Below, in pieces: positions 28,444 through 59,596 of a stretch of 64,000 nucleotides of DNA. Below the pieces are notes generated by a model that did not search any database, was not told the origin of the DNA, and saw only the letters and a program-made list of their open reading frames with translations. The DNA is from Parabacteroides faecis (GTDB lineage: Bacteria; Bacteroidota; Bacteroidia; Bacteroidales; Tannerellaceae). Made by a program: the position numbers and the translations under genes. Position 1 is the first letter of the stretch. The number at the start of each line of letters is the position of its first letter. The DNA lies in the NCBI RefSeq assembly GCF_014647375.1, contig NZ_BMPB01000006.1, forward strand, positions 1-64,000, in the 5' to 3' direction.

Positions 28444-28476
28444 GAAATCAGTCCGAAAGTATATATGCTTTTCGGC

Positions 28477-28519
28477 AAAAGGTTACATGCTTTTAATCAA
28501 AAGCATGTAACCTTTTTTC
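28477..28519 (+). terminator. Intrinsic terminator of Tricorn paralogue 2
   Basis: A perfect 18-bp inverted repeat (28477-28494 with 28499-28516, core GGTTACATGC) closes a 4-nt loop and runs into T residues. It separates the protease gene from PUL B and rules out an upstream start for the sigma gene. Confidence 0.92.
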
Positions 28520-28541
28520 TTTTATCATGTAATAATTCTTT

Positions 28542-28549
28542 TACCTTTG
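28542..28549 (+). promoter_or_regulatory. Candidate -7 box of the PUL B sigma gene
   Basis: TACCTTTG matches TAnnTTTG; a T-rich TTTC stretch lies near the -33 position inside the preceding terminator tail. The implied transcript start (~28555) favours the ATG at 28570. Confidence 0.5.
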
Positions 28550-28569
28550 CAAAGGCAACTATGTACATT

Positions 28570-29148
28570 ATGAACGAAGAATCACTGTATATTCATCAGC
28601 TTAGAAGTGGAGATTCCCGGTCTTTTGAATACCTGTACAATATTTGGAGCGGTAAGCTCTATAATTTTGTTATGCGTATTTCAAAGGGGGATAGCTACCT
28701 GGCGGAAGATATCGTGCAGTCGACCTTTGTCAAAGTCTGGGAAAACCGCCAGTTGCTCGATCCCGACAAATCTTTCGGGTCCTATCTGTGTACCGTCGCT
28801 AAAAATCAATTAGTGAATATTTATCAGCATAGGATGCTGGAGTATCTTTATCAGGAAAAAGTTAAAACTTCTGAGCCGACTGAAAATACCACCGAAAAGG
28901 AAGTTGATTACCATCTGCTGGAAGAATACATCGACTCATTGATAGACCAGTTACCACCTGCCCGTAGAGAAATATTCGTATTAAGTCGCCGCAATATGTT
29001 AACCAACAAAGAAATAGCGGAGAAGCTCAATCTTTCGGAAAACACGGTAGAATCTCAGTTGACCAAAGCTATCTCTTTCATGCGTAGTAAGATAAATAAG
29101 CATTACAGTTTATCTGTGTCTTTACTCCTTTATTTATTAATAGATTAA
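28570..29148 (+). CDS. ECF sigma factor (PUL B)
   Basis: This 192-residue ECF sigma-70 factor has region 2 (SFEYLYNIWSGKLYNFVMRI ... YLAEDIVQSTFVKVWENR, about 17-75) and region 4 (LPPARREIFVLSRRNMLTNK, then EIAEKLNLSENTVESQL, about 125-170). It belongs to the Bacteroidales PUL-associated ECF group. It ends in a short hydrophobic tail (SVSLLLYLLID). The longer open frame to 28465 is rejected since it would run through the terminator; ATG 28561 is an alternative. It should be held by the FecR protein encoded next and released on ligand sensing by the STN-type SusC. Confidence 0.9.
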   Translation: MNEESLYIHQLRSGDSRSFEYLYNIWSGKLYNFVMRISKGDSYLAEDIVQSTFVKVWENRQLLDPDKSFGSYLCTVAKNQLVNIYQHRMLEYLYQEKVKTSEPTENTTEKEVDYHLLEEYIDSLIDQLPPARREIFVLSRRNMLTNKEIAEKLNLSENTVESQLTKAISFMRSKINKHYSLSVSLLLYLLID

Positions 29149-29170: not shown

Positions 29171-29196
29171 GGGTAACGGATTTTTTCCGGTTGCCT
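29171..29196 (+). promoter_or_regulatory. Hairpin between sigma and fecR of PUL B
   Basis: GGTAACGGA and TCCGGTTGCC flank a T-rich loop and pair with one bulge and one G-T pair. The hairpin lies 23-48 nt upstream of the fecR start and may tune fecR translation relative to sigma. Confidence 0.45.
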
Positions 29197-29218: not shown

Positions 29219-30241
29219 ATGGAAAAGCAAGATTACATACAATTATTCGATAAGTTTCTGCTGAAGCAAGCTTCGCCAGAAGAGGTGCAGATATTGATCC
29301 AATGGCTGAAAAGCGAAGGTTCGTTTCAGGATTGGATGGATGAGGAATGGGATGTTGCTTCTTCCGGAATGGATACTGATTTACAACAAAAATTACTGGG
29401 GCAGATAAAGCAGAAAATCAGCTTGGAAATGCAACAGGCACCGCTGAAAAGGAATAAATATCGTACAATTTATCTATGGACTGCCCGCATAGCTTCTGTT
29501 ATAATACTTTTATTATTGACCGGAATCTCAGTCTATCGTTATGCTATGGAACAGCAGAAGATGCAAGATATGATTGTCTCGGTCGAAAAAGGGCAAAAAG
29601 CAAATGTTGTACTTCCTGACGGTTCTAAAGTATGGGTTAATTCCGATTCAAGATTGATTTATGGAAGCCGTTTTACATCTAAAGAGAGAATCCTGGAACT
29701 GGAAGGTGAAGCCTATTTTGAAGTGGCTCCCGATAAGGATCGCCCTTTTATTGTGGAGACGAATGATTTGGCAGTCCGGGCATTGGGCACTAGCTTCAAT
29801 GTGAAATCTTATGAAGAAGAAAAGGATATATCCACTGTTTTAATGACTGGAAAAGTTGAAGTATCAAGCAGTTATGATCGCCTGATATTAAATCCGAATG
29901 AAAGAATAGTCTTTGATAAGCAGACCGGGCATATGGAAAAGAGTAGTGTGGAAAACGCTAAAGAGTATATTAATTGGAAATTCAATGAACTGACATTTAA
30001 AGGGGAAACTTTTGAAAATATCGTTCACACTCTGGAACGCTATTACAATACCCGCATTGTTTTTGAATCGGAATCATTAAAAAAATATCGTTTTACAGGA
30101 ACACCCGGAAATACCAGTTTGGAAAGTATTTTACAGATACTGTCCCTGACTTCTCCTTTGTCGTATGAAGTGAAGGATAGCTTGATTATCTTATGGGAGA
30201 ATGTGAAGCAGAAAGCATATTATGAAAAAGCATTGAAATAG
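29219..30241 (+). CDS. FecR-family anti-sigma factor (PUL B)
   Basis: This 340-residue inner-membrane protein has a cytosolic sigma-binding N-terminus (about 1-80), one membrane helix (about 85-107), a periplasmic FecR domain (about 115-220; VEKGQKANVVLPDGSKVWVN and LEGEAYFEVA) and a C-terminal DUF4974 domain (about 265-335; WKFNELTFKGETFENIVHTL). The periplasmic part is expected to contact the STN domain of the SusC encoded downstream and pass the ligand signal to the sigma factor. It lies 70 nt after the sigma gene. Confidence 0.93.
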   Translation: MEKQDYIQLFDKFLLKQASPEEVQILIQWLKSEGSFQDWMDEEWDVASSGMDTDLQQKLLGQIKQKISLEMQQAPLKRNKYRTIYLWTARIASVIILLLLTGISVYRYAMEQQKMQDMIVSVEKGQKANVVLPDGSKVWVNSDSRLIYGSRFTSKERILELEGEAYFEVAPDKDRPFIVETNDLAVRALGTSFNVKSYEEEKDISTVLMTGKVEVSSSYDRLILNPNERIVFDKQTGHMEKSSVENAKEYINWKFNELTFKGETFENIVHTLERYYNTRIVFESESLKKYRFTGTPGNTSLESILQILSLTSPLSYEVKDSLIILWENVKQKAYYEKALK

Positions 30242-30274
30242 ATATATTGTTGTTTAACTTTTAAATTATAGGAT

Positions 30275-30408
30275 ATGAAAAACACAGAATGAGAGGAGTA
30301 ATAAAGGGACAGTGCCTGGCACCATCCCCTATCGTGATTTATAACCGCACTTAGGTATCTCGCAAATAGTAAGTGCAATTAGTAAATACCTTTAATCTCT
30401 ACAAATTT
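30275..30408 (+). promoter_or_regulatory. Structured susC leader with mini-ORF (PUL B)
   Basis: The interval between fecR and susC opens with a five-codon mini-ORF (ATG 30275, peptide MKNTE, stop at 30290-30292), 33 nt after the fecR stop. A GC-rich hairpin follows (GGGA-CA-GTGC-CTG-GCAC-CA-TCCC, about 30307-30329), then AGGTAT/ATACCT arms flanking the susC ribosome-binding region. Mini-ORF start to susC ATG is 134 nt, identical to PUL C. Regulation of susC translation or transcription is inferred. Confidence 0.5.
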
Positions 30409-33400
30409 ATGAATTATTTAATTAGCAGGACTATTTACGTCCTTAAAAAACGGCAATTTAGCTGGGTTAAATTAGTATTATTTATATTGTTGATATCGCC
30501 TTCCCTCTTAGGTCAGATATCGGTAAGTATTCAAAAGCAGACTTTACGACAAGCCTTGAAGGCAATAGAACGTTCGGGGAATTATCAGTTTTTTTATAAT
30601 GAAGATTTATCCAGCCTGGATAAGATCGTATCTCTGACGGTAAAAGATGCTCCGGTGGAAGAAGTGCTGGATAAGTTATTGTACGGTACGGATATCACTT
30701 ACAAGAAAGAGAAAGAAAACTTGATCGTGCTGACGTTGAAAGCGACATCAGTTGCTCCGCAACAGGAGAATCGAACGGTGAAAGGTACGGTTGTCGATGC
30801 AACGGGTGAACCGGTTATCGGGGCGAATGTAGTGGAAAAAGGAACTACGAACGGTACGGTTACTGATATGGATGGTAAGTTTGCATTGGAAGTATCTGCC
30901 GGTGCTACATTGAGTATTTCTTATATCGGTTATACAGAGCAATTGGTTCCGGTTAAAAATCAATCTACTTTCGATATTAAGTTGATGGAGGATACACAGA
31001 AACTGGAAGAGATCGTTGTGGTAGGATACGGAGCTCAGAAGAAAGTGAATCTGACAGGGTCTGTCGCTTCTATTTCCAGCCAGGAATTGGTACAACGTCC
31101 TATTACTTCTGTAGCTTCCGGTATTCAGGGGATTGTGCCGGGTTTGACGATTACTGCAGGCCAGGGACGTCCTGGTTCCAGCGACAATACCAGTATACGT
31201 GTGCGTGGTACGGGAACCCTCAATAATTCAGATCCTTATATTTTGATCGACGGAATAGAATCAGGATCTATGAATCAGATCGATCCGAATGATATTGAGT
31301 CTATTTCCGTTCTGAAAGATGCTGCATCAGCTGCTATTTATGGTTCGAAGGCAGCCAATGGTGTCATCTTGATTACTACTAAACGCGGTAGTTCCGGTCG
31401 TCCTGTCGTTGCTTATAATGCCACTTTCGGTTGGCAGACTGCTACTGGTTTTGTAGAAAGAATGAACTCTGCTGATGCTGCGACTTACTATAACAAAGCG
31501 TTGGAATCGAGTGGTAAAGCTCCCCGCTTTACAGAAGATGACATCCGCTTGTTCCGTGACGGAACTGATCCTTACGGCCATCCGGATACAGACTGGAATG
31601 ATTTGGGCTTTGCCGGAAATGGATTTATGCACCAACATAATATAAATTTATCCGGTGGGTCTGAGAACATAAAATACATGGCTTCGGTAGGCTACTTGAA
31701 CCAGAATGGTATTATGAAGCATAGCAACCGTGAACAGTTCAACATGCGAACGAATCTGGATGCCAAATTATCGGATCATGTCAATGTCCGTGCAAATATG
31801 TCGTTCATTCATAATGATTATGCAGATCCGACGAACTCTTACGTAGGAGGAGGATCCGATCAGATTATCCGTCAGTTGAACCGTATCGCTCCCTGGATAC
31901 CGTATAAAAATGAAGACGGAACCTATGGAACTATCGGTGATGGTAACCCTGTTGCCTGGTTGGATCTGGATCAGACATTGAATCGTAACAATCAGAACTT
32001 TTCAGGTATTCTGGCCGTTGATTATAATGTGATGAAAGGTCTGAAATTTACTGCACAGGGGGCATATGTATCCGATGTTCAGGACAGGAAAGAATTTGTT
32101 AAGGATATTCAATATAATTCGATTAAATATCATGGTCCTAATTCTCTGGATGAACGGACTTATTTATGGAACCGTACATCTTTGGATTTGTTGATGAATT
32201 ATGACAAGAGTTTTGGTAACCATAATCTGAAAGCAATGGTCGGTTATCGTATTGAAAAGTATAATTATAAATATACTAAGGCTTATCGTAAGGGTTTCCC
32301 GAATAATGATATGACGGATATTAATGCCGGTACACAGTCGACACAAACCAATGAGGGATATTCCCGCGAACTGGCTATGATGTCTTATTTTGGACGTGTG
32401 AATTATGATTATGCCGGAAAATACTTGTTTGAAGCGAACTTTAGAGCGGATGCTTCTTCCCGTTTCAGCCCCGATAACCGTTGGGGATATTTCCCTTCTC
32501 TTTCTGCCGGATGGCGTATGTCTGAAGAAGGTTTTATGGAAGGAGCACGTGATTGGATGCAATCTCTGAAACTGCGTGCATCCTGGGGACAGCTGGGAAA
32601 CCAGGAGGCTTTAGACGATTATTATCCCTGGTTGATCACTTATGCGATCGGTTCAAGCAGTGGCGGTAATTATCCTTTTGACGGAAATGTAAATACAGGT
32701 ATAATGCAGAAAGCACAGAAATTGTCTTCTATCTCCTGGGAAAAATCATCGAATTGGGGTATTGGTTTTGATTTAAGTGTACTTTCCTGTCTGGACTTGA
32801 CTTTGGATTATTACAATCGTAAAACAACCGGTATCATTATGGATGTTCCTGTTCCCGGTAGTTTCGGACTCGATCCATATAAGGATAATGTAGGTGCCAT
32901 GCGTAACTCGGGTTTTGAAGTAACAGCTTCTTTCCATAAACGGTGGAATGATTGGACATTTGGAGCGACCGGAAATATGGCAGTGAATAAGAATGAGATA
33001 CTGAATCTGGGCGGTGTAAATGAAATGGTAGATAAAGACAATGCCTATTTTATCAATCGGGTAGGTGCAGCCTATAAGTCTTTTTACGGATATGTCGCTG
33101 ACGGACTGTTCAGAAGCCAGGAAGAAGCCGATGCTTATACGGAAAAATACGGAAATCCTTTCGGTAATGCATTTAAAGCAGGCGATATTAAATATAAAGA
33201 TGTGAATGGGGATGGAAAGCTGACTTCGGCCGACCGTGATGTTGCCGGATCCGAACAGCCGAATGTGACTTTTGGTTTGAACCTGTCTGCTTCCTGGAAA
33301 AATTTCGATCTGTCTGTCTTTATGCAGGGAGCCTGTGGTGTATCGCGTTATTTCAATAATGAGGTATTCGGTGAATTTACCGGAGATAGTTCTCACCCTT

Positions 33401-33741
33401 CCACTGCCTGGTTTGATGCCTGGTCTCCGGAAAATCCGGATGGGACATTTCCTCGTGTTGCAGAGTCTGACCGTACTAACAGTACTCCTTCGAATTATTC
33501 GACCTTCTGGATATTCAAAACGAACTATCTGCGGATCAAAAATATCCAGTTCGGATATAATTTACCTGACAGTTGGTTGAAGGGAATAGGCATTTCACGT
33601 GCCAAGATTTATTATTCAGGAGAAAACCTGTTCAAGTTTGATAACCTGCCGGTTAATATCGATCCGGAAGCACCCTCGGGTCGTGGTTCTCATTATCCGC
33701 AGGTATGTACAAATTCAATCGGAGTTAATATAACCTTCTAA
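30409..33741 (+). CDS. SusC-family TonB-dependent transducer/transporter with STN domain (PUL B)
   Basis: This 1110-residue outer-membrane protein has a signal peptide (KLVLFILLISPSLLG) and an STN/secretin-N domain (about 37-105; LRQALKAIERSGNYQFFYN) that signals to FecR. A carboxypeptidase-D-like domain (about 123-195), TonB-box-like EEIVVVGYG (about 204), a plug with VRGTGTLNNSDPYILIDG and VLKDAASAAIYGSKAANG, and a barrel ending SIGVNITF follow. The ATG at 30409 is preferred over a GTG at 30373 because the signal peptide follows it. It should import the PUL B ligand and report its presence. Confidence 0.95.
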   Translation: MNYLISRTIYVLKKRQFSWVKLVLFILLISPSLLGQISVSIQKQTLRQALKAIERSGNYQFFYNEDLSSLDKIVSLTVKDAPVEEVLDKLLYGTDITYKKEKENLIVLTLKATSVAPQQENRTVKGTVVDATGEPVIGANVVEKGTTNGTVTDMDGKFALEVSAGATLSISYIGYTEQLVPVKNQSTFDIKLMEDTQKLEEIVVVGYGAQKKVNLTGSVASISSQELVQRPITSVASGIQGIVPGLTITAGQGRPGSSDNTSIRVRGTGTLNNSDPYILIDGIESGSMNQIDPNDIESISVLKDAASAAIYGSKAANGVILITTKRGSSGRPVVAYNATFGWQTATGFVERMNSADAATYYNKALESSGKAPRFTEDDIRLFRDGTDPYGHPDTDWNDLGFAGNGFMHQHNINLSGGSENIKYMASVGYLNQNGIMKHSNREQFNMRTNLDAKLSDHVNVRANMSFIHNDYADPTNSYVGGGSDQIIRQLNRIAPWIPYKNEDGTYGTIGDGNPVAWLDLDQTLNRNNQNFSGILAVDYNVMKGLKFTAQGAYVSDVQDRKEFVKDIQYNSIKYHGPNSLDERTYLWNRTSLDLLMNYDKSFGNHNLKAMVGYRIEKYNYKYTKAYRKGFPNNDMTDINAGTQSTQTNEGYSRELAMMSYFGRVNYDYAGKYLFEANFRADASSRFSPDNRWGYFPSLSAGWRMSEEGFMEGARDWMQSLKLRASWGQLGNQEALDDYYPWLITYAIGSSSGGNYPFDGNVNTGIMQKAQKLSSISWEKSSNWGIGFDLSVLSCLDLTLDYYNRKTTGIIMDVPVPGSFGLDPYKDNVGAMRNSGFEVTASFHKRWNDWTFGATGNMAVNKNEILNLGGVNEMVDKDNAYFINRVGAAYKSFYGYVADGLFRSQEEADAYTEKYGNPFGNAFKAGDIKYKDVNGDGKLTSADRDVAGSEQPNVTFGLNLSASWKNFDLSVFMQGACGVSRYFNNEVFGEFTGDSSHPSTAWFDAWSPENPDGTFPRVAESDRTNSTPSNYSTFWIFKTNYLRIKNIQFGYNLPDSWLKGIGISRAKIYYSGENLFKFDNLPVNIDPEAPSGRGSHYPQVCTNSIGVNITF

Positions 33742-37412: not shown

Positions 37413-38414
37413 ACATCAGTATATAGAAATTTGAAAGATTGGTTAACGAAATATCAGGCTGAAAAAATAAGCCGGGAAGAATTTCGTGAACTCAGGCAGG
37501 AAATCAATAATCATTCGGATGAAGAACTTTTTCCTGTATTGCTCGATAGTTGGAATAGTTGGGATAATAACGAATGTTTATCGTCGGAAGATGCCCAAAG
37601 CCTATTGCTTCGTATCCGGCAAGAAATGAATGTAAAGCCTGTTCCCGGAATAAGAAAGTTGGCCTGGCGACAAATCGCAGCAGCTGTGGCCTTTTTACTA
37701 ATGGGAAGCTTATCGGTCTATTTCTATGTTGATAACCGTGAAATTACTCAGTTAGCAGACCGGGTTATGGAAGTCAAAGTCGGAAAAGGAGAGCGGGTTT
37801 CAATCACTTTACCGGATGGAACGGCTGTTAAACTTAATTCTGAATCTGTGCTTTCGTATAAACAGGATTTTGGGAAAAAAGATCGCCGTGTGTCTCTTTC
37901 TGGCGAAGGATATTTCGATGTGCAGAAAGACGTGCAAAAAAAATTCGTAGTGAATACTGAATTTATGGATATTGAAGTAACTGGTACTTCGTTCAATGTA
38001 TATGCTTATTCCGATAAGGATATACTGGAAATGGCATTGGTGCATGGTAGTGTGACTGTTTCTTCTGTCTGCCCGCCTTTTGAGAAAATACATGTCATAC
38101 CGAATGAGAAAGTTATTTATGATAAGAGAACAGGGCTAATGAAGAAAATAATAACTTCAAATATATTAGAAACAGCTTGGGTAAGTAAAGAATTGGTGTT
38201 CAGGTCTGAATCAATAGATAATGTATTGAAGAGAGTCGGACGGAAATATGGTGTATCTTTTGAAATCGAGGATTCATCACTTGTCAAGGAAACTTATACC
38301 GGTGTGTTTGATAAGGAAGAGATTGAAGAGGTAATGAGGATACTGAAAATTCATTATGGATTTGATTATAAGATAAAAGGAGAAGTCATTCAACTTTTTG
38401 TGACAAATAAATAA
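37407..38414 (+). CDS. FecR-family anti-sigma factor (PUL C)
   Basis: This 335-residue inner-membrane protein has a cytosolic N-terminus (about 1-85), a membrane helix (about 87-108), a FecR domain (about 118-220; VGKGERVSITLPDGTAVKLN; LSGEGYFDVQ) and a C-terminal DUF4974-like domain (about 258-333; WVSKELVFRSESIDNVLKRV). It should sequester the sigma factor encoded upstream until the STN domain of the cognate SusC signals. Its start codon lies in a perfect stem. Confidence 0.93.
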   Translation: MSTSVYRNLKDWLTKYQAEKISREEFRELRQEINNHSDEELFPVLLDSWNSWDNNECLSSEDAQSLLLRIRQEMNVKPVPGIRKLAWRQIAAAVAFLLMGSLSVYFYVDNREITQLADRVMEVKVGKGERVSITLPDGTAVKLNSESVLSYKQDFGKKDRRVSLSGEGYFDVQKDVQKKFVVNTEFMDIEVTGTSFNVYAYSDKDILEMALVHGSVTVSSVCPPFEKIHVIPNEKVIYDKRTGLMKKIITSNILETAWVSKELVFRSESIDNVLKRVGRKYGVSFEIEDSSLVKETYTGVFDKEEIEEVMRILKIHYGFDYKIKGEVIQLFVTNK

Positions 38415-38439: not shown

Positions 38440-38573
38440 ATGAAAACATAGGAAGAAGAAAAAAATATCCGGAAAGCGGGCCGGCTCTCCGGATAAATCG
38501 TCGAATTCAGTTCGAGAAGCTATGTGATAGCATAGCTATAAAAAAACTAAAAGTCAACTTTAAATTTCTTATT
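38440..38573 (+). promoter_or_regulatory. Structured susC leader with mini-ORF (PUL C)
   Basis: A three-codon mini-ORF (ATG 38440, peptide MKT, stop 38449-38451) begins 25 nt after the fecR stop. It sits behind an A-rich stretch ending in GAAGT, the same bases that precede the susC ATG of PUL D. Two hairpins follow: TATCCGGA/TCCGGATA around a GC-rich inner stem (about 38467-38496) and AGCTATG/CATAGCT (about 38518-38537). The distance from mini-ORF ATG to susC ATG is 134 nt, as in PUL B. Confidence 0.5.
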
Positions 38574-41500
38574 ATGAATGTTATACAAAACGTAGTTAAG
38601 ATAAAGTGTAAAAGTACGAAATTTTGTGGAACAAACTTGTTACTTGTACTTAGTTTTATCTTTTTAACAACAATATCAGCGAATGCTCAAACAGGCACTG
38701 TTAACTTGAAATTAGAGAATGTGACATTACCGCGTCTTTTTCAGGAAATAGAAAAACAGTCAACTTATCGTTTTTCTTATAGGGATGCAGATCTTACAGG
38801 AAAAGAACCCGTTACAGTCTCAGTGAAGGAACAATCATTAAAAAGTTTATTAACAGGAATTTTATCGAAACGAAATCTTCAGTATCAAGTCTCGGGAAAT
38901 AAGATACTGATTACAGTATCATCCACGCAATCTCCGAAATTGACGGGGAAAAAGGAGGTGAGTGGAGTTGTTGTCGATGATAAAGGCGAACCGATCATCG
39001 GAGCCAATATCATAGAGAAAGGGACGACCAATGGGATCATGACTGATGCCAATGGCATATTCTCTTTGACGGTAACTGCAGGTGCACAAATTCAGGTTTC
39101 ATATATCGGATATTTATCACAAGAGATCAATGTGGGTAATAAAAGTGATTTTCAGATCATTTTAAAAGAAGATCTTCATACATTGGAAGAAGTGGTTGTG
39201 GTAGGATACGGTACGCGGCAGAAAAGTACATTAACAGGATCTGTATCTTCTGTAAAAGGTACTGAAATAATGAAATCTCCTACAGCAAATATATCATCTG
39301 CTTTTGCAGGGCGTCTACCTGGAGTCGTTGTAAATAGCCGTAGTGGAGAACCCGGAGGTGATGATGCCAGTATCCTGGTCCGTGGGCGGGGTACTACCGG
39401 TGATAGTAGTCCGCTGATACTTATCGACGGAGTGGAACGTCCCGGTCTAGGTCAGCTTAATCCCAATGATATTGAAAGTGTGAACGTTCTGAAAGATTCT
39501 GAAGCCGCTATTTATGGTTCACGTGCCTCTAATGGAGTGATCGTTGTTACAACAAAGAGAGGTGTAAAAGGGAAACCGACAATTAATTTTTCATATAATC
39601 AGACATTTGCCCAGCCTACCAGGAATCCTAAAATGGCGGATGCTTATACCTTTGCATCTGTAGCAAATGAAATCCGTGTCAGGGAGCATGCCGACCCGAA
39701 TACACAACCTGTTATGGCTTATACACCAGAAGAAATGGAAAAATTTAGAGTTGGAACGGAGCCCGGATATACTTCAACCAATTTCTTTGATGAAATGATT
39801 CGCAATTGGACTCCGCAACACCGTACGAATTTATCGATTTCAGGTGGTGGTGACCGGGTAAATTACTTCCTGTCTTTAGGTGAATTGAAACAGAATGGAC
39901 AATTCGAAGGGAGCACTATTAAATACAACCAATATAATATTCGTTCTAATATAGATGTTAAAGTAGCACATGGTCTGACTGCAAGTCTGGATGTCGCAGG
40001 TCAATATGATTCTCGTCATTCTCCTTATTATAGTGCTTATGAATTAATCAGTCATATATTCCTTTATGCACCACAATGGCAATTGTATTGGCCTGGAACT
40101 GACCATCTTCAACCCTTGCGCGGAGATCAAAACATCGTTAATATGGTTAATGATAATGCGGGATGGCATGAGATTAAAAATAATAAATTTGAAGGAAATC
40201 TCTCTTTGAAATGGGAGGTTCCATGGGTTAAAGGACTGGCTCTTACGGCACGTGGTTCGTATGATGCACGTTTTCAATATTGGAAAACATTTCAAACCCC
40301 GTCTTATGTGTATAATAAGGATGAGGCAACAGGTGAATATATTAAGCGTTTGGACGGTATGGGGCCTGCAAAAGCATCTTTGCAAGACAGGAGCGATATG
40401 CCTTCTTCCATTTATCTTTTGTTAAAAGCCGATTATTCTCATTCTTTTGGAGATCATAATCTGGATGTCATGTTAGGTTATGAGCAGACGCAGACAAAGG
40501 GATATTATCTGAGTGCCAGTAAACCGGAATTTGAATCGACATCTCTTCCTATATTGAATGTAGGGGGAACGGATAAAACGAAGTGGGGTATCGAAGGTTA
40601 TGGTAGCGAGTTTGCCAGACAGAATTATTTTGGAAGATTGAATTATGACTATAAGGGAAAATATATCCTGCAGGGAACTTTGAGAGTCGACGGCTCATCG
40701 AACTTCCCCAAAAATAACCGTTTCGGTTATTTCCCCAGTTTCTCTGCTGCATGGAGATTGTCAGAAGAAGCATTTATGAAGAATATGGATTGGTTGAACA
40801 ATCTGAAAGTAAGAGCGAGTTGGGGTATGATGGGAAACGATAAAATAGATAATTTTCAGTACCTGATGACTTATTCCTACGGCAATAATTATGTAGTTAA
40901 CAATATGGATGTCCAGGGTATTTATGAAACGCGTGTACCTAATCCGAATGTTACCTGGGAGACATCCAAGACTTGGGATGTGGGTTTGGATGCAAATTTA
41001 TGGAATGGAAAATTAGGAGTGGAATTTGATTATTTCCGTTCTATGCGAGATGATATTCTGGGTAAACGTAATGCGACAGTTCCTGGTTATACCGGTATAA
41101 CTTTGCCGGACGAGAATATTGCAAGTGTTCTTAATCGCGGATTTGAATTGGTACTGACTCATTATAATACCGCGGGGGATTTTACCTATTCTATTTCCGG
41201 AAATCTAGCGTTCGCCCGTAACGAAGTAAAATTTATAGATGAGGCTCCGGCTGCCGAACCCTATCAGGTCAAAACAGGAAATCCTTACGGTTCTGAATTA
41301 TATTATGACGCAATCGGTATATTCAAAGATGAGGAACACCTGGCTAGCTATCCGCATCTATCGAATGCAGGCCCTGGCGACCTGATTTTCAGAGATACGA
41401 ATGGAGATGGTGTGATTAATGAAAAAGACCAGATATTGATCACTAAAACAGATATTCCTGAAATGACATTTGGGTTGACGGGAACTGTCCAGTACAAAGG

Positions 41501-41963
41501 CTTTGATTTGTCAGTACTTCTACAGGGACAGGAAAGATGTAATGTTCCTATGGTCAAAGGTAAAGGCAATATCTATTCTAACTTCTTCAGTACGATGAGT
41601 GATACCTGGGGTGGTTTTTTACAATGGCGTGCCGATGGCAGATGGATTCCGGGAGCAGACAACTCAAATGCGACGATGCCGCGTGCTAATTCAGCAAATG
41701 CAAATGTCAACTCCGGTTATAATACGCATTGGATCAGAAACGGAGGATTTCTTAGATTAAAGAATCTTGAAATCGGATATACCTTGCCGAAACCGATTGT
41801 TAATAAAATGGGTTTAAGCGATATTCGTATTTCTGCCAGCGGAAATAATCTTTTCCTGATATATGACAGTATGAGAGATCTTGGATATGACCCTGAAACC
41901 AATGATTATTGGTATTATTCAATTCAGAGGACAATTAATTTTGGCATTAATGTAACCTTTTAA
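38574..41963 (+). CDS. SusC-family TonB-dependent transducer/transporter with STN domain (PUL C)
   Basis: This 1129-residue outer-membrane protein has a signal peptide (LVLSFIFLTTISANAQ), an STN domain (about 45-115; LPRLFQEIEKQSTYRFSYRD), a carboxypeptidase-D-like domain (about 128-195; VSGVVVDDKGEPIIGANI), TonB-box-like EEVVVVGYG (about 205), a plug with VRGRGTTGDSSPLILIDG and a barrel ending FGINVTF. The plug segment reads VLKDSEAAIYGSRASNG, one residue shorter than in the PUL B and D paralogues. It should import, and signal the presence of, the ligand processed by the GH106 enzyme. Confidence 0.95.
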   Translation: MNVIQNVVKIKCKSTKFCGTNLLLVLSFIFLTTISANAQTGTVNLKLENVTLPRLFQEIEKQSTYRFSYRDADLTGKEPVTVSVKEQSLKSLLTGILSKRNLQYQVSGNKILITVSSTQSPKLTGKKEVSGVVVDDKGEPIIGANIIEKGTTNGIMTDANGIFSLTVTAGAQIQVSYIGYLSQEINVGNKSDFQIILKEDLHTLEEVVVVGYGTRQKSTLTGSVSSVKGTEIMKSPTANISSAFAGRLPGVVVNSRSGEPGGDDASILVRGRGTTGDSSPLILIDGVERPGLGQLNPNDIESVNVLKDSEAAIYGSRASNGVIVVTTKRGVKGKPTINFSYNQTFAQPTRNPKMADAYTFASVANEIRVREHADPNTQPVMAYTPEEMEKFRVGTEPGYTSTNFFDEMIRNWTPQHRTNLSISGGGDRVNYFLSLGELKQNGQFEGSTIKYNQYNIRSNIDVKVAHGLTASLDVAGQYDSRHSPYYSAYELISHIFLYAPQWQLYWPGTDHLQPLRGDQNIVNMVNDNAGWHEIKNNKFEGNLSLKWEVPWVKGLALTARGSYDARFQYWKTFQTPSYVYNKDEATGEYIKRLDGMGPAKASLQDRSDMPSSIYLLLKADYSHSFGDHNLDVMLGYEQTQTKGYYLSASKPEFESTSLPILNVGGTDKTKWGIEGYGSEFARQNYFGRLNYDYKGKYILQGTLRVDGSSNFPKNNRFGYFPSFSAAWRLSEEAFMKNMDWLNNLKVRASWGMMGNDKIDNFQYLMTYSYGNNYVVNNMDVQGIYETRVPNPNVTWETSKTWDVGLDANLWNGKLGVEFDYFRSMRDDILGKRNATVPGYTGITLPDENIASVLNRGFELVLTHYNTAGDFTYSISGNLAFARNEVKFIDEAPAAEPYQVKTGNPYGSELYYDAIGIFKDEEHLASYPHLSNAGPGDLIFRDTNGDGVINEKDQILITKTDIPEMTFGLTGTVQYKGFDLSVLLQGQERCNVPMVKGKGNIYSNFFSTMSDTWGGFLQWRADGRWIPGADNSNATMPRANSANANVNSGYNTHWIRNGGFLRLKNLEIGYTLPKPIVNKMGLSDIRISASGNNLFLIYDSMRDLGYDPETNDYWYYSIQRTINFGINVTF

Positions 41964-55084: not shown

Positions 55085-56083
55085 ATGGTGCAAATAGATA
55101 ATTACATACAATCATTTTTGAATGGATCTCTGGATGCTGAGAGCCATGCTGTTTTACGGCAGTGGATCAAAGAAAAACCGGAGAACAGGGAATATTTCCA
55201 AAATACGGTAGCTATATGGAAAGCGACCGGAGTAATGTCGAATGCCGATGGTTTCGATGTTACAAGTGCCATCGGTAAGTTTAAGGAAGAAACCCAACCG
55301 GCAAACCGGATGGAATTCTATCGCCGTGCATTGAAATTATCGGCTACCGCTATCATTCTTTTATTGTGTGGAGTTTCTTCATTATTCTTTTTGTGGCAAT
55401 CGGAGCGATCGGCATCGGAGATGGTTGAAGAATACAAAGAATATGTGGTTGAGGTTCCGGACGGAGCAAAATCAAAGATTACATTTCCGGACGGTTCTGT
55501 TGTCTGGCTGAATGCCGGGAGCAAGGTGACGTATGATTCGAACTTTGCCAGGGAATCGAGAAATGTCGGATTGACGGGGGAAGGCTATTTCGAAGTAAGC
55601 AAAAATAAAGAATTACCCTTTGTGGTGAATACCGGGAAATTAACAGTGAAGGTTCTCGGTACTAAATTCAATCTAAAATCCTATGAAGAAGACTCAGAGG
55701 TGAAAGTAACCCTCAAGGAGGGAGCGGTGAAGGTCGGAGATTTTCTGACCGATGCCGCCCCGGTCGTACTGAAACCAAACCAGCGGTTCACCTTCAAGAA
55801 AATGACTCAGACCATACAGGTCGATTCGGTGGATGCCAGCCATATAGAGAATTGGCGTAACGGAGCGATGACCTTTGATAAGGTTCCGCTTGAAGAAATA
55901 GCAAAAGAATTGAGACGCCTATACAATATACCGATCCGGATAGAGAGCGATAAACTAAAACATATCGTCTATTATTCAGATTTTCAGGAGAATGTGTCGA
56001 TAGAAAAAGTACTGGAAATATTGTCTTCCGGCAATAAATTCAGGTATGAGGTGAAACCGGAATTTGTTAGAATTTTCAATTAA
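55085..56083 (+). CDS. FecR-family anti-sigma factor (PUL D)
   Basis: This 332-residue inner-membrane protein has a cytosolic N-terminus (about 1-80), one membrane helix (about 84-104), a FecR domain (about 120-225; VPDGAKSKITFPDGSVVWLN; LTGEGYFEVS) and a C-terminal DUF4974 domain (about 258-330; NGAMTFDKVPLEEIAKELRR). No sigma gene precedes it; the nearest one is at 61601, after susD. It should still gate a sigma factor in response to the STN domain of the SusC encoded next. Confidence 0.93.
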   Translation: MVQIDNYIQSFLNGSLDAESHAVLRQWIKEKPENREYFQNTVAIWKATGVMSNADGFDVTSAIGKFKEETQPANRMEFYRRALKLSATAIILLLCGVSSLFFLWQSERSASEMVEEYKEYVVEVPDGAKSKITFPDGSVVWLNAGSKVTYDSNFARESRNVGLTGEGYFEVSKNKELPFVVNTGKLTVKVLGTKFNLKSYEEDSEVKVTLKEGAVKVGDFLTDAAPVVLKPNQRFTFKKMTQTIQVDSVDASHIENWRNGAMTFDKVPLEEIAKELRRLYNIPIRIESDKLKHIVYYSDFQENVSIEKVLEILSSGNKFRYEVKPEFVRIFN

Positions 56084-56111
56084 CATAAGTCAAACCCAAA
56101 AGTAAATGTGA

Positions 56112-56200
56112 ATGAGGAAAAAGTAGTAGTAACCGTGGGGTAAAAAATCAGGAACCCTTTTTTCAAGTAATTAAAAAGTTAAATCTTAAACAAGTGAAGT
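56112..56200 (+). promoter_or_regulatory. susC leader with mini-ORF (PUL D)
   Basis: A four-codon mini-ORF (ATG 56112, peptide MRKK, stop 56124-56126) begins 28 nt after the fecR stop. It is followed by GGGT and ACCC arms with a T6 run behind them (about 56138-56162), a weak terminator-like hairpin. The arrangement parallels the PUL B and C leaders, but the distance to the susC ATG is 89 nt rather than 134. Confidence 0.4.
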
Positions 56201-59200
56201 ATGAAAAAAACATTTAGAAAATCTGTTCAGGACTTATTGGCTACAAGAGCAGGACGTCTGGCAAATCTGGCTGGTGTATTTCTTGTTGCCGGAACGCTTA
56301 CTCTTAGTGCGAGTACGTATGCCACTGAGCATATGCTTTCCTTAAATCTTAAAAATGCCACGATCCGTGAGGCTATTGAATCCATCAAGAGCCAAAGTGA
56401 ATTTTCATTCAGTCTGGATGTTAAAGATCTCAATCTGGATGAAAAAGTATCTGTCTCCCTGGACAACAAGTCTATTAATGAAGTATTGGCCGTGCTGTTT
56501 AACGGACGGAATGTACACTATGAAATCAATGATCGTCATGTTGTTATTACTCGTGCCGGAGAAATTGGGCCTGGAGCAGTGATGCAACAGACAAAGCAGA
56601 TCACAGGCCGTGTTCTGGATGCGAATAATGAACCCGTTATCGGAGCAAATGTTGTAGTAGAAGGAACGACAATCGGTACGGTAACTAATGTGGATGGTAG
56701 CTTTACATTGGATGTGCCTGACAAAGCAACATTGAAAATCTCTTATATAGGTTATATCGAACAGAGTATTCCTGTTGGAAATAAATCTGTAGTTTCTGTT
56801 ATTCTGAAAGAAGATTCACAGGCGTTGGACGAAGTGGTTGTGGTTGGGTTCGGTACGCAGAAGAAATTGAATTTGACCGGTGCTGTAACGGCTGTTACCG
56901 GCGAAGAGATGACCAAACGTCCGGTTACTAATGCAGCAACCATGTTGCAGGGACAGGTTCCGGGTTTGCGTGTCAACCAGGGTTTAGGAGCCCCGGGTGC
57001 TGAGGCTACTACTTTTCGTGTTCGCGGTCAGGGAACTTTCTCTGATGCAGGTTCTGATCCGCTGGTTTTGGTAAATGGAGTTCCGGGTAGTATCTCTAAC
57101 CTGGATCCGAGCATGATTGAAAGTGTTTCTGTATTGAAAGATGCTGCGTCTGCTGCTATTTATGGTGCTCGTGCCGCCAATGGGGTTATTCTTGTGACGA
57201 CGAAGCAAGGGGCGGCTGGTGATGGTAAGGCACACATTGCTTATCATGGAAATGTAGGCATCTACAACCCGACTCGTATGTACGATATGGTAACGAACTC
57301 TGCAGAATATATGGAATTGTTTAACCTGGCCAAAGCAAATTCCGGAGCTGGAGAACGCTATACCCAGGAGCAGATCGATGCTTATCGGAATGGTGGTGGT
57401 AGCGAACAATATCCTAATTTCGACTGGTTGGGTTATATGTTCAATACAGCCGTGGTTCAGAATCATAATCTGTCGATTGCCGGTAATGCCGGAAAGACAA
57501 CATATAATGTTGCTTTGAACTTTGTAAATCAGCCTGGTACGTTGAAAGGCTTCGATTATCAGAAATACAATGCGACAATCGACTTGACTTCTCAGATTAC
57601 TGATTTTATCAAGATCGGTACTTATTCCAATTTGATGTATGGTGATCGGGAAGAACCTCGTCAGGGACAGAGTGATGTTTTACTTTCAACAATGTCGCAG
57701 GCGCCTACTTATATGCCGTGGTTGCCGGATGATGGTTCCGGTGTTACCCGCTGGACCGGTTCCGCCTATTCTTTTGAATCTCACAATAAAAATATGCCGG
57801 CCATCATTGGTACCAACACTACTAAAAATTATCAGGATTTTGATGTGAATGCTCAATTGTGGTTGGAGGTAAATCTGGCTAAAGGGCTTACCTGGTATAC
57901 AAAAGGGGCCGCTCGTTTGCAATCGAATAAGTGGAAAGAGTGGGGAGGATCCGATGTCCCGGTTTATGATTATCATACAGGCGAACAAACCGGTTATCTG
58001 GATAGAGGTTCTAATGGTTTGACTGTTGAAGATCAACGTCGTTTCTATACGAATCTGTATACTTATTTGAAGTATGATTATTCTACTCCGAATAAAAATC
58101 ACAACTTCAGTATTATGGCCGGTTATAGCCAGGAATCGGAAAAGTATGAAACAGTAAGAGCGTTCAGAAAAGAATATGCATTTGACTTGCCGGTAATCGA
58201 TGCCGGTTCTACTGCGAATTGGTCTAATGAAGGAAAACAGGAAGAGTGGGCCATCCAGTCTGTATTCGGCCGTTTGAACTACAATTTTAAAGAACGTTAT
58301 CTGTTTGAAGCCAATATGCGTTATGACGGTACATCCCGTATCTCTTCGGAAAATCGCTGGGGTATTTTCCCTTCATTCTCTGCAGGTTGGCGTATTACGG
58401 AAGAGGATTTTATTAAGGATTTGAATCTGAATTGGCTGAATAATGCTAAAATCCGTGCTTCTTGGGGACAGTTAGGTAACCAGAATATTGGTTTATATCC
58501 ATATCAGGCGATGATTGCCAGTGTAAGTAACTATCCGTTTGATAAGAAAACTGAAACCGTGGGTTATCAGCAGAAAGCGTATGCAAACCGCGACATCAAA
58601 TGGGAAACTACTACTATTACCGACGTCGGTTTCGATTTGCAGGTATTCAATGGGTTGAATGTTACATTCGACTGGTATAAGAAAGTTACTTCTGATATTT
58701 TGCGTACCTCACAGGTTTCTGCATTGTTGGGTATGACTGCTCCGACTGTAAATAATGGAGAAGTTGAAAACAAAGGTTTTGAAATCGCTTTCAATTACAA
58801 CAACATGATCACGGATGGAGTCTTTAAGGGCTTGCAATATAATGCAGGTGTTTATTTCGATCGCTCGAGAAACAAATTAACGCAGTTTGGTGCAGAGGAA
58901 ATCGACGGATATAAATTGAGAAGAGAAGGTCTTCCGTATAATGAATATTATATGCTGGAATGTATCGGTGTCTTTGCAACGGAAGATGAAGTGAAAAATT
59001 CACCGAAACAATTTAATGATAATACATTACCGGGTGACCTGAAGTTTAAGGATCAGAATAATGATGGTGTAATTGATAATGATGACCGTATTCCTATTTC
59101 AGGACGTTTCCCGGGTTTTGAATATTCGGTAAATGCCGGTGCTAGCTGGAAAGGCTTCGATTTATCGTTACAGGGACAAGGTGTTTCAGGTAAGAAATGG

Positions 59201-59596
59201 TATACAAACGACTGGGGAATCTATCCGTTCCGTCAGGGCTCTGCTCCGACGCGTGAATATATAGAAGGTATGTGGACAGAAGAAAATCCATATAATGCCA
59301 AACATCCGCGTCTTTACTTCGATAATTTGGGAGGTAATAAGAATAACAGAGCGAATACTTATATGTTGCAGAATGCTTCTTATTTCCGTTTGAAGAATTT
59401 GACATTCGGCTATACTTTACCAAAAGCCGTTACGGATAAAGTGAAAATGTCACGGGTAAGAGTTTATTTCTCAGGAGATAATCTATTGACATTTACAAAA
59501 TTCTACGGTCTGGATCCGGAACGTGAGGATGATGGACGTGCAGCTGTTTATCCGCAAAATAGAATTTGTTCTTTTGGTTTAAATGTTGAATTTTAA
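56201..59596 (+). CDS. SusC-family TonB-dependent transducer/transporter with STN domain (PUL D)
   Basis: This 1131-residue outer-membrane protein has an extended signal region (LANLAGVFLVAGTLTLSAST), an STN domain (about 47-115; IREAIESIKSQSEFSFSLDV), a carboxypeptidase-D-like domain (about 132-200), TonB-box-like DEVVVVGFG (about 210), a plug with VLKDAASAAIYGARAANG and a barrel ending SFGLNVEF. It should take up the PUL D ligand and signal through the FecR encoded upstream. susD begins 13 nt downstream. Confidence 0.95.
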   Translation: MKKTFRKSVQDLLATRAGRLANLAGVFLVAGTLTLSASTYATEHMLSLNLKNATIREAIESIKSQSEFSFSLDVKDLNLDEKVSVSLDNKSINEVLAVLFNGRNVHYEINDRHVVITRAGEIGPGAVMQQTKQITGRVLDANNEPVIGANVVVEGTTIGTVTNVDGSFTLDVPDKATLKISYIGYIEQSIPVGNKSVVSVILKEDSQALDEVVVVGFGTQKKLNLTGAVTAVTGEEMTKRPVTNAATMLQGQVPGLRVNQGLGAPGAEATTFRVRGQGTFSDAGSDPLVLVNGVPGSISNLDPSMIESVSVLKDAASAAIYGARAANGVILVTTKQGAAGDGKAHIAYHGNVGIYNPTRMYDMVTNSAEYMELFNLAKANSGAGERYTQEQIDAYRNGGGSEQYPNFDWLGYMFNTAVVQNHNLSIAGNAGKTTYNVALNFVNQPGTLKGFDYQKYNATIDLTSQITDFIKIGTYSNLMYGDREEPRQGQSDVLLSTMSQAPTYMPWLPDDGSGVTRWTGSAYSFESHNKNMPAIIGTNTTKNYQDFDVNAQLWLEVNLAKGLTWYTKGAARLQSNKWKEWGGSDVPVYDYHTGEQTGYLDRGSNGLTVEDQRRFYTNLYTYLKYDYSTPNKNHNFSIMAGYSQESEKYETVRAFRKEYAFDLPVIDAGSTANWSNEGKQEEWAIQSVFGRLNYNFKERYLFEANMRYDGTSRISSENRWGIFPSFSAGWRITEEDFIKDLNLNWLNNAKIRASWGQLGNQNIGLYPYQAMIASVSNYPFDKKTETVGYQQKAYANRDIKWETTTITDVGFDLQVFNGLNVTFDWYKKVTSDILRTSQVSALLGMTAPTVNNGEVENKGFEIAFNYNNMITDGVFKGLQYNAGVYFDRSRNKLTQFGAEEIDGYKLRREGLPYNEYYMLECIGVFATEDEVKNSPKQFNDNTLPGDLKFKDQNNDGVIDNDDRIPISGRFPGFEYSVNAGASWKGFDLSLQGQGVSGKKWYTNDWGIYPFRQGSAPTREYIEGMWTEENPYNAKHPRLYFDNLGGNKNNRANTYMLQNASYFRLKNLTFGYTLPKAVTDKVKMSRVRVYFSGDNLLTFTKFYGLDPEREDDGRAAVYPQNRICSFGLNVEF

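Follow-up and report, generated by a model that had tools for sequence, protein, structure and literature searches.

The leaders of many susC sugar-transporter genes in Parabacteroides faecis and its relatives appear to hold two small genes on opposite strands. On the susC strand lies a minute ORF (mini-ORF) which the evidence supports as a real, presumably translated leader gene. On the minus strand, the hairpin beyond it is best explained as an intrinsic terminator, serving a DonS-type antisense small RNA that is predicted to be transcribed across the leader. These two modules are associated yet separable. The small RNA belongs to a known type, whereas the recurring minute gene beside it is without any description that was found: the titles, abstract openings and passages searched contained no report of recurring mini-ORFs in susC leaders. 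The sequence-only reading of this DNA, which knew of no named element with such a layout, thus stands, within the literature searched, for the mini-ORF but not for the hairpin half.

The window analysed here is a stretch of 64,000 nucleotides (contig NZ_BMPB01000006.1, positions 1 to 64,000), in which PULs B and C have the gene order ECF sigma gene, fecR, susC, and PUL D that of fecR then susC. A profile search matched PF04773 to all three fecR genes and TIGR04056 to all three susC genes. In PUL B, the ECF sigma factor gene (28465..29148, plus strand; TIGR02985 Sig70_bacteroi1, 151.8 bits, over the cut-off) and the fecR-type anti-sigma gene (29219..30241, plus; PF04773 at 29576-29860, E 5.6e-20) are followed by an A/T-rich initiation region, TTGTTTAACTTTTAAATTATAGGAT (30250..30274, plus), which by eye fits the family pattern AACCTTTAAA found at approximately -24 to -12 relative to the mini-ORF ATG. 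The mini-ORF itself (30275..30292, plus; ATG AAA AAC ACA GAA TGA, MKNTE*) has 5 codons and starts 33 nt past the fecR stop; a hairpin follows, and the ATG of susC (30409..33741, plus; TIGR04056, 1002.7 bits) lies 134 nt from that of the mini-ORF, all as first described. Over residues 1-230, this SusC shares 97% identity with a Parabacteroides goldsteinii record. PUL B also holds an inverted repeat, GGTAACGGATTTTTTCCGGTTGCC, at 29172-29195, in the interval from the ECF sigma gene to fecR; when its arms were sought as loose words before 30 fecR genes of the genome, that of PUL B included, 2 matched.

PUL C has its fecR stop ending at 38414, a mini-ORF at 38440..38451 (plus; ATG AAA ACA TAG, MKT*) and susC at 38574..41963 (plus; TIGR04056, 978.5 bits), so the distance between the two ATGs is again 134 nt. 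This equality was correctly noted but is a coincidence rather than a special feature, as exactly 134 nt is found in 3 of 78 cases (median 119.5, IQR 114-135). In PUL D, where fecR ends at 56083, a mini-ORF is likewise present after fecR (56112..56126, plus; ATG AGG AAA AAG TAG, MRKK*), with a start-stop ATG TGA near it (56106-56111, plus) and susC at 56201..59596 (plus; TIGR04056, 950.7 bits); the hairpin part of the layout does not extend to this PUL, no stable one being found. A candidate plus-strand terminator there, GGGG...ACCC TTTTTT, was rejected, as it folds no better than shuffled sequence and is not kept in relatives.

The 83 FecR domains found in the P. faecis genome by a PF04773 search were all traced to the next gene, giving an own-genome set of 83 gaps downstream of FecR genes with a median length of 153 nt. 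Among the matches listed, FecR domains number 0 to 42 per genome across the 39 other genomes sampled from the family, compared with these 83. A family set, fetched after the mini-ORF motif had been fixed, was drawn from the best-scoring 89 loci of the FecR listing for the family, which we take to be Tannerellaceae, and yielded 84 gaps, five loci having no downstream gene in the stretch. Wider samples covered the order (24 loci and 21 gaps, three loci giving none), the phylum (20 gaps) and two Bacteroides genomes (21 loci and 19 gaps, two loci giving none). Pooled statistics were restricted to gaps 100 nt or longer, 138 in all; the clustering of gaps by similarity was loose, with 42 gaps in the biggest cluster. 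Hairpins were chosen by a strand-symmetric score, the level taken as strong being attained by 3.1% of shuffles. Nineteen susC genes without fecR, from 56 scored among 207 candidates, served as a control, and 30 of the 37 matches in one further set came with loci and were read.

The start of the mini-ORF stands out first as a motif. GCCTATG occurs in 29 of the 83 own-genome fecR gaps, against 0.5 expected from shuffling, and RC[CT]TATG in 37 of the 83 (shuffled mean 2.3, maximum 8 over 200 shuffles); starts of the (A/G)C(C/T)TATG type are present in 87 of the 138 pooled gaps. A stop codon follows the motif ATG within six sense codons in 86 of these 87 when read in frame, the two shifted frames giving 29 and 28. 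The same excess is observed when each similarity cluster is represented by a single gap (40 of 41, against 10 and 13) and in the 56 motif-bearing gaps of the family set (52, against 20 and 20). In the 39 own-genome gaps with motif-type starts, stop triplets peak at each third base past the ATG, with 4, 16, 7, 8 and 7 at offsets +3, +6, +9, +12 and +15 and between 0 and 2 at each offset in between. Because the stops lie at many distances yet in a single frame, a fixed A-tract cannot produce this pattern. For control ATGs taken from the half of the gaps nearer susC, the three frames differ little (42, 29 and 38 of 98); other ATGs in the fecR half show a smaller bias (108, 67 and 83 of 216), which may come from mini-ORFs missed by the motif. 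The mini-ORFs range from 1 to 8 codons, two being the commonest length (32/87) and 13 of the 87 consisting of a bare start and stop, and their peptides differ from locus to locus, with none common across loci.

A Shine-Dalgarno-like word precedes only 5 of 92 mini-ORFs, and this hallmark of leader minigenes is therefore not general here; AGGAGG stands in this position at loci L029, L076 and L082. The first two of these, with L052 and L031, belong to a subgroup whose leader ORFs start with ATGAAAAAAAG or similar and run into or through the hairpin, and which may form a distinct class; within it, L029 and L076 are those behind AGGAGG. The phylum has been described as being without Shine-Dalgarno sequences, with A at -3 favouring initiation, in the parts of that study drawn on here (PMC6847099). 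The motif starts, by contrast, carry C at -3, a position set by the motif used, and GCCT directly before the ATG may have some other role, for instance as part of a promoter.

The fullest version of that idea, possible though rather unlikely, is that GCCTATG and AACCTTTAAA are elements of an ECF-sigma promoter of susC, the ATG being incidental and the quick stops serving to limit stray translation of read-through from fecR. GCCT before the ATG is indeed kept more strictly than initiation would ordinarily seem to require, and while this is partly fixed by the motif, GCCTATG itself was detected independently of the later motif. The core of the ECF -35 element is AAC, and the AAC of the upstream block fits it. 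TGTT is also enriched 20-34 nt upstream of the mini-ORF ATG (20 cases, against 8 in the interval from -80 to -40), a word which the cited part of one study places near the -10 of two promoters linked to the ECF factor SigW-1, without statistical significance (PMC12596196). However, the spacing from the AAC block to the ATG is only loosely fixed, being spread mostly over 18-24 nt, and no motif at a fixed spacing that could represent a common ECF promoter was found upstream of the mini-ORF. The reading-frame signal is, moreover, very strong, and many gaps without GCCT keep a short ORF, some of them behind AGGAGG: in the gaps lacking the motif, the first ATG has an early in-frame stop in 30 of 44, against 11 and 17 in the other frames.

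The frame is also kept between species. Among 38 other Parabacteroides genomes, the five relatives with long matches to gap B encode MRNTE*, MENTG*, MKNTE*, MKNTG* and MINV*, the frame being preserved through synonymous and stop-for-stop changes, and a sixth with a partial match (L237) has, by eye, MKSP*. Two relatives of gap C have MKT* and MSI*, and three of gap D have MGKKEL*, MKEK* and MK*. A translated leader ORF, one of the functions first offered for this element, is thus favoured by the three-base periodicity of in-frame stops, by the agreement of the later-fetched set and by the frame kept in orthologues. Further afield, the layout was recognised by eye in L309, L312 and L329 among the 21 order gaps, L312 combining GCCTATGTAA with a hairpin and box, and the motif is found in 1 of the 20 phylum gaps, where L209 by eye also has MK*, an A-tract and a hairpin. 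Of the 19 Bacteroides gaps, five carry the motif as the start of an ORF no longer than five codons, which in two cases is start-stop; one further match, L354, does not open a short ORF. The genus in which DonS was studied is hence open to direct examination, although the motif seems rarer there. In the genus to which a Bacteroides pyogenes record belongs, the strict initiation block is uncommon, its pattern matching in 3 of 31 genomes.

The distances separating these elements bear on which gene the mini-ORF serves. From the mini-ORF ATG to the hairpin the median is 29 nt (IQR 26-34), whereas the distance from the fecR stop is looser (median 30.5 nt, IQR 20-37). It is improbable that the mini-ORF acts for fecR, with a restart after the fecR stop either shielding the sigma-fecR message at its 3' end or blocking Rho termination before susC. 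In favour of such a role, it lies 20-37 nt past fecR in half of the gaps. Against this, the hairpin is the more closely spaced neighbour, and mini-ORFs also precede susC genes that have no fecR: L085 and L094 (both MV*), L101 (MEN*) and L287 (MT*). The motif is present within 330 nt upstream of 6 of the 19 sampled susC genes without fecR, opening ORFs of 2 to 5 codons in L252, L257, L261 and L268, one of 20 codons in L266, and one of 7 codons in L254 that is probably inside a mis-started gene; a seventh gene of this sample, L267, has MK* behind GAGGAG. At L063, finally, the mini-ORF is 305 nt from fecR, beyond an inverted repeat, and 139 nt from susC. That repeat (L063:936-963) is strong and directly follows fecR, scoring as a terminator with 11 pairs on the minus strand but only weakly on the plus.

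These occurrences before susC without fecR, together with the distances at L063, identify the mini-ORF as an element of the susC leader and not of fecR, and it probably lies within the susC transcript. Set against this, 30 of 92 mini-ORFs lie no more than 22 nt past the fecR stop, so that either the susC promoter would in those cases be inside fecR, or the mini-ORF would be read only on a fecR-susC transcript. A tie to FecR is accordingly not what defines the element. The absence of a mini-ORF from PULs lacking FecR applies to the window, whose other susC (17434) has a gap of only 21 nt before it, but not genome-wide. Seven of the 19 susC genes without fecR (L254, L255, L256, L257, L258, L264 and L267) have a palindrome, AGTTC-N5-GAACT, in the 330 nt before them, and none of the 83 FecR-type stretches of the own genome contains it; it looks like the operator of another PUL regulator.

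A strong hairpin is present in 113 of the 138 gaps, and its features point consistently to the minus strand. A T-tract (at least five T in eight) follows it on the minus side in 91 of the 113 and on the plus side in 1, and the wobbles in its stems are G-U on the minus-strand RNA 158 times, as opposed to 10 times on the plus-strand RNA. In 83 of the 113, a minus-strand TANNTTTG box covers the A of the susC ATG; this box was found at none of the 19 sampled susC genes without fecR and at none of 23 other plus-strand ORF starts picked in the window. No -33 box is prominent across the gaps analysed. The RNAs predicted from box and terminator have a median length of 85 nt, 68 of the 83 falling within 78-128 nt, the range given for DonS-type RNAs in the relevant passage (PMC7366714).

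For PUL B, fold, promoter box and terminator together predict an antisense RNA of about 97 nt, with estimated ends, at 30299..30395 (minus). Its -7 box, TAAATTTG (30402..30409, minus; type TANNTTTG), overlaps the susC start codon, and the stem of its terminator hairpin (30306..30328, minus) is complete only on the minus-strand RNA. The T-tract of PUL B is itself poor: the tail past the hairpin, TTTATT... (30296..30305, minus), is weak in P. faecis, stronger in relatives and uncalled in a consensus scan. The stretch 30293-30340 folds at -17.4 kcal/mol on the minus strand against -10.6 on the plus, and 30297-30395 at -32.4 kcal/mol (z -4.2) on the minus. When the window is taken together with five relatives, the cells of the two stems are 97.6% paired on the minus-strand RNA and 79.4% on the plus, slid controls giving 35-51% on the minus. 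The covariation is modest, with three pairs changed on both sides. The second conserved stem, at 30342-30381 inside the predicted RNA, has one compensatory change and wobbles on the minus strand only. The terminator of PUL C (38459..38495, minus) comprises a hairpin at 38466-38495 and then seven T on the minus strand, and folds at -20.1 kcal/mol (z -4.5) there against -17.1 (z -2.9) on the plus; no -7 box was found at this susC start. Neither a stable hairpin nor an antisense promoter box was found in PUL D. Of the three, therefore, PUL B has a predicted RNA antisense to the beginning of a susC homologue as DonS does, albeit with a weak T-tract, PUL C has the terminator only and PUL D has neither.

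The hairpin and the short ORF before it had also suggested a transcriptional attenuator, and the part of one study consulted describes, in general terms, short ORFs of some long B. thetaiotaomicron leaders as reminiscent of attenuators (PMC7366714). A peptide-sensing attenuator on the susC strand is, however, very improbable and was rejected: a T-tract that would make the hairpin a same-strand terminator is found on the plus side in just that 1 of 113, the stems are partly broken on the plus-strand RNA, and there is neither a peptide common to the loci nor any sign of regulatory codons, those 13 of 87 ORFs having no second codon at all. The alternative suggestion of a small-RNA source is supported, but for the strand opposite susC.

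Among gaps 100 nt or longer, the mini-ORF motif is found in 63 of the 83 with the full antisense signature, in 15 of the 30 that have just the hairpin and in 9 of the 25 that have neither. It is scarcely credible that the antisense RNA alone has a role and that the mini-ORF simply arises from A/T-rich sequence, for while such DNA commonly holds short ORFs and the motif often coincides with the antisense signature, the stops after mini-ORF ATGs are biased in frame relative to the controls and the motif also occurs where hairpin and box are missing.

The function that we propose, at a probability of about one half, is a two-strand leader in which a translated minigene loads a ribosome in cis and raises susC expression, the antisense RNA having the opposite effect. 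The antisense RNA gene on the minus strand would start at the box over the susC start codon, cross the leader and end at the hairpin; the minigene on the plus strand, nearly always one to seven codons long, some 29 nt before the hairpin and with its own initiation region, would belong to the susC leader. The peptide would be irrelevant, the conserved feature being ribosome binding and fast release in this leader. Such loading and release is the likely function because peptide and length vary while the start, the frame and the early stop are kept. The bound ribosome may shield the leader from nucleases or hold it open, in either case increasing susC expression, and the antisense RNA would cover the stretch from the mini-ORF to susC and reduce expression, which is the effect reported for DonS. 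The sequences themselves show both gene signatures, selection on the mini-ORF frame and its presence before susC without fecR; transcription and translation are inferred, and a positive effect of ribosome loading on susC is our best guess by analogy.

DonS-type RNAs are tied to PULs with sigma/anti-sigma pairs. In the passages available, they are cis-antisense RNAs of Bacteroides PULs, opposite the start of susC homologues (PMC7366714, PMC10994844, PMC11697453), and how DonS represses its PUL is reported as unknown (PMC11697453). The RNAs considered here share the antisense position at the susC start, with a predicted median of 85 nt, a terminator and a promoter box, but are predicted from sequence alone and in Parabacteroides and its relatives; those passages on DonS make no mention of a -7 box over the susC start codon or of a mini-ORF beyond the terminator. 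The FopS small RNAs, according to the portion cited, also repress susC translation in Bacteroides, but act in trans through a shared seed (PMC11697453). Rfam gave a 5S rRNA as its sole gathering-level match in the window; below threshold, the two matches within 30000-30700 were both far beneath their cut-offs.

Very short leader ORFs of two to six codons, the size class seen here, have a downstream effect in cis that is ascribed to mRNA protection at the LEE1, LEE4 and axe-txe loci. In the sections of the account consulted, the two-codon ORF mg2 of the axe-txe leader acts in cis to increase expression of txe, possibly through protection of the mRNA, although deletion of the whole leader increased expression by 30%; a ribosome on the six-codon ORF of LEE4 protects the mRNA from RNase E, binding without translation being sufficient; and the two-codon minigene of EHEC LEE1 has a positive or negative effect depending on distance (PMC8708949). 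Those are single loci with a Shine-Dalgarno sequence, whereas the mini-ORFs described here occur at tens of loci per genome in a phylum mostly without one, are often start-stop and are often paired with an antisense RNA gene. The bar minigenes of phage lambda, two-codon ORFs such as ATG ATA TAA, act in trans by tying up tRNA. The same letters are found in L003 and L122, but nothing in the susC leaders points to a trans action of this kind.

A second conserved and apparently translated element borders the gene for an RNA of the DonS kind at tens of loci in one genome, and its sequence signature can now be used to find mini-ORF/antisense loci. If they raise susC expression, the mini-ORFs would constitute a large natural set in which to study start-stop ORFs in bacteria mostly without Shine-Dalgarno sequences. 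A more speculative extension, which we think unlikely, is that they represent a lineage-wide class of minigenes, many of them start-stop, in which a ribosome parked just past the end of the antisense RNA gene and competing with antisense pairing would form a two-strand on/off switch at dozens of glycan loci per genome. Should the mini-ORF raise susC expression, it would supply a missing layer in the control of glycan uptake by gut bacteria.
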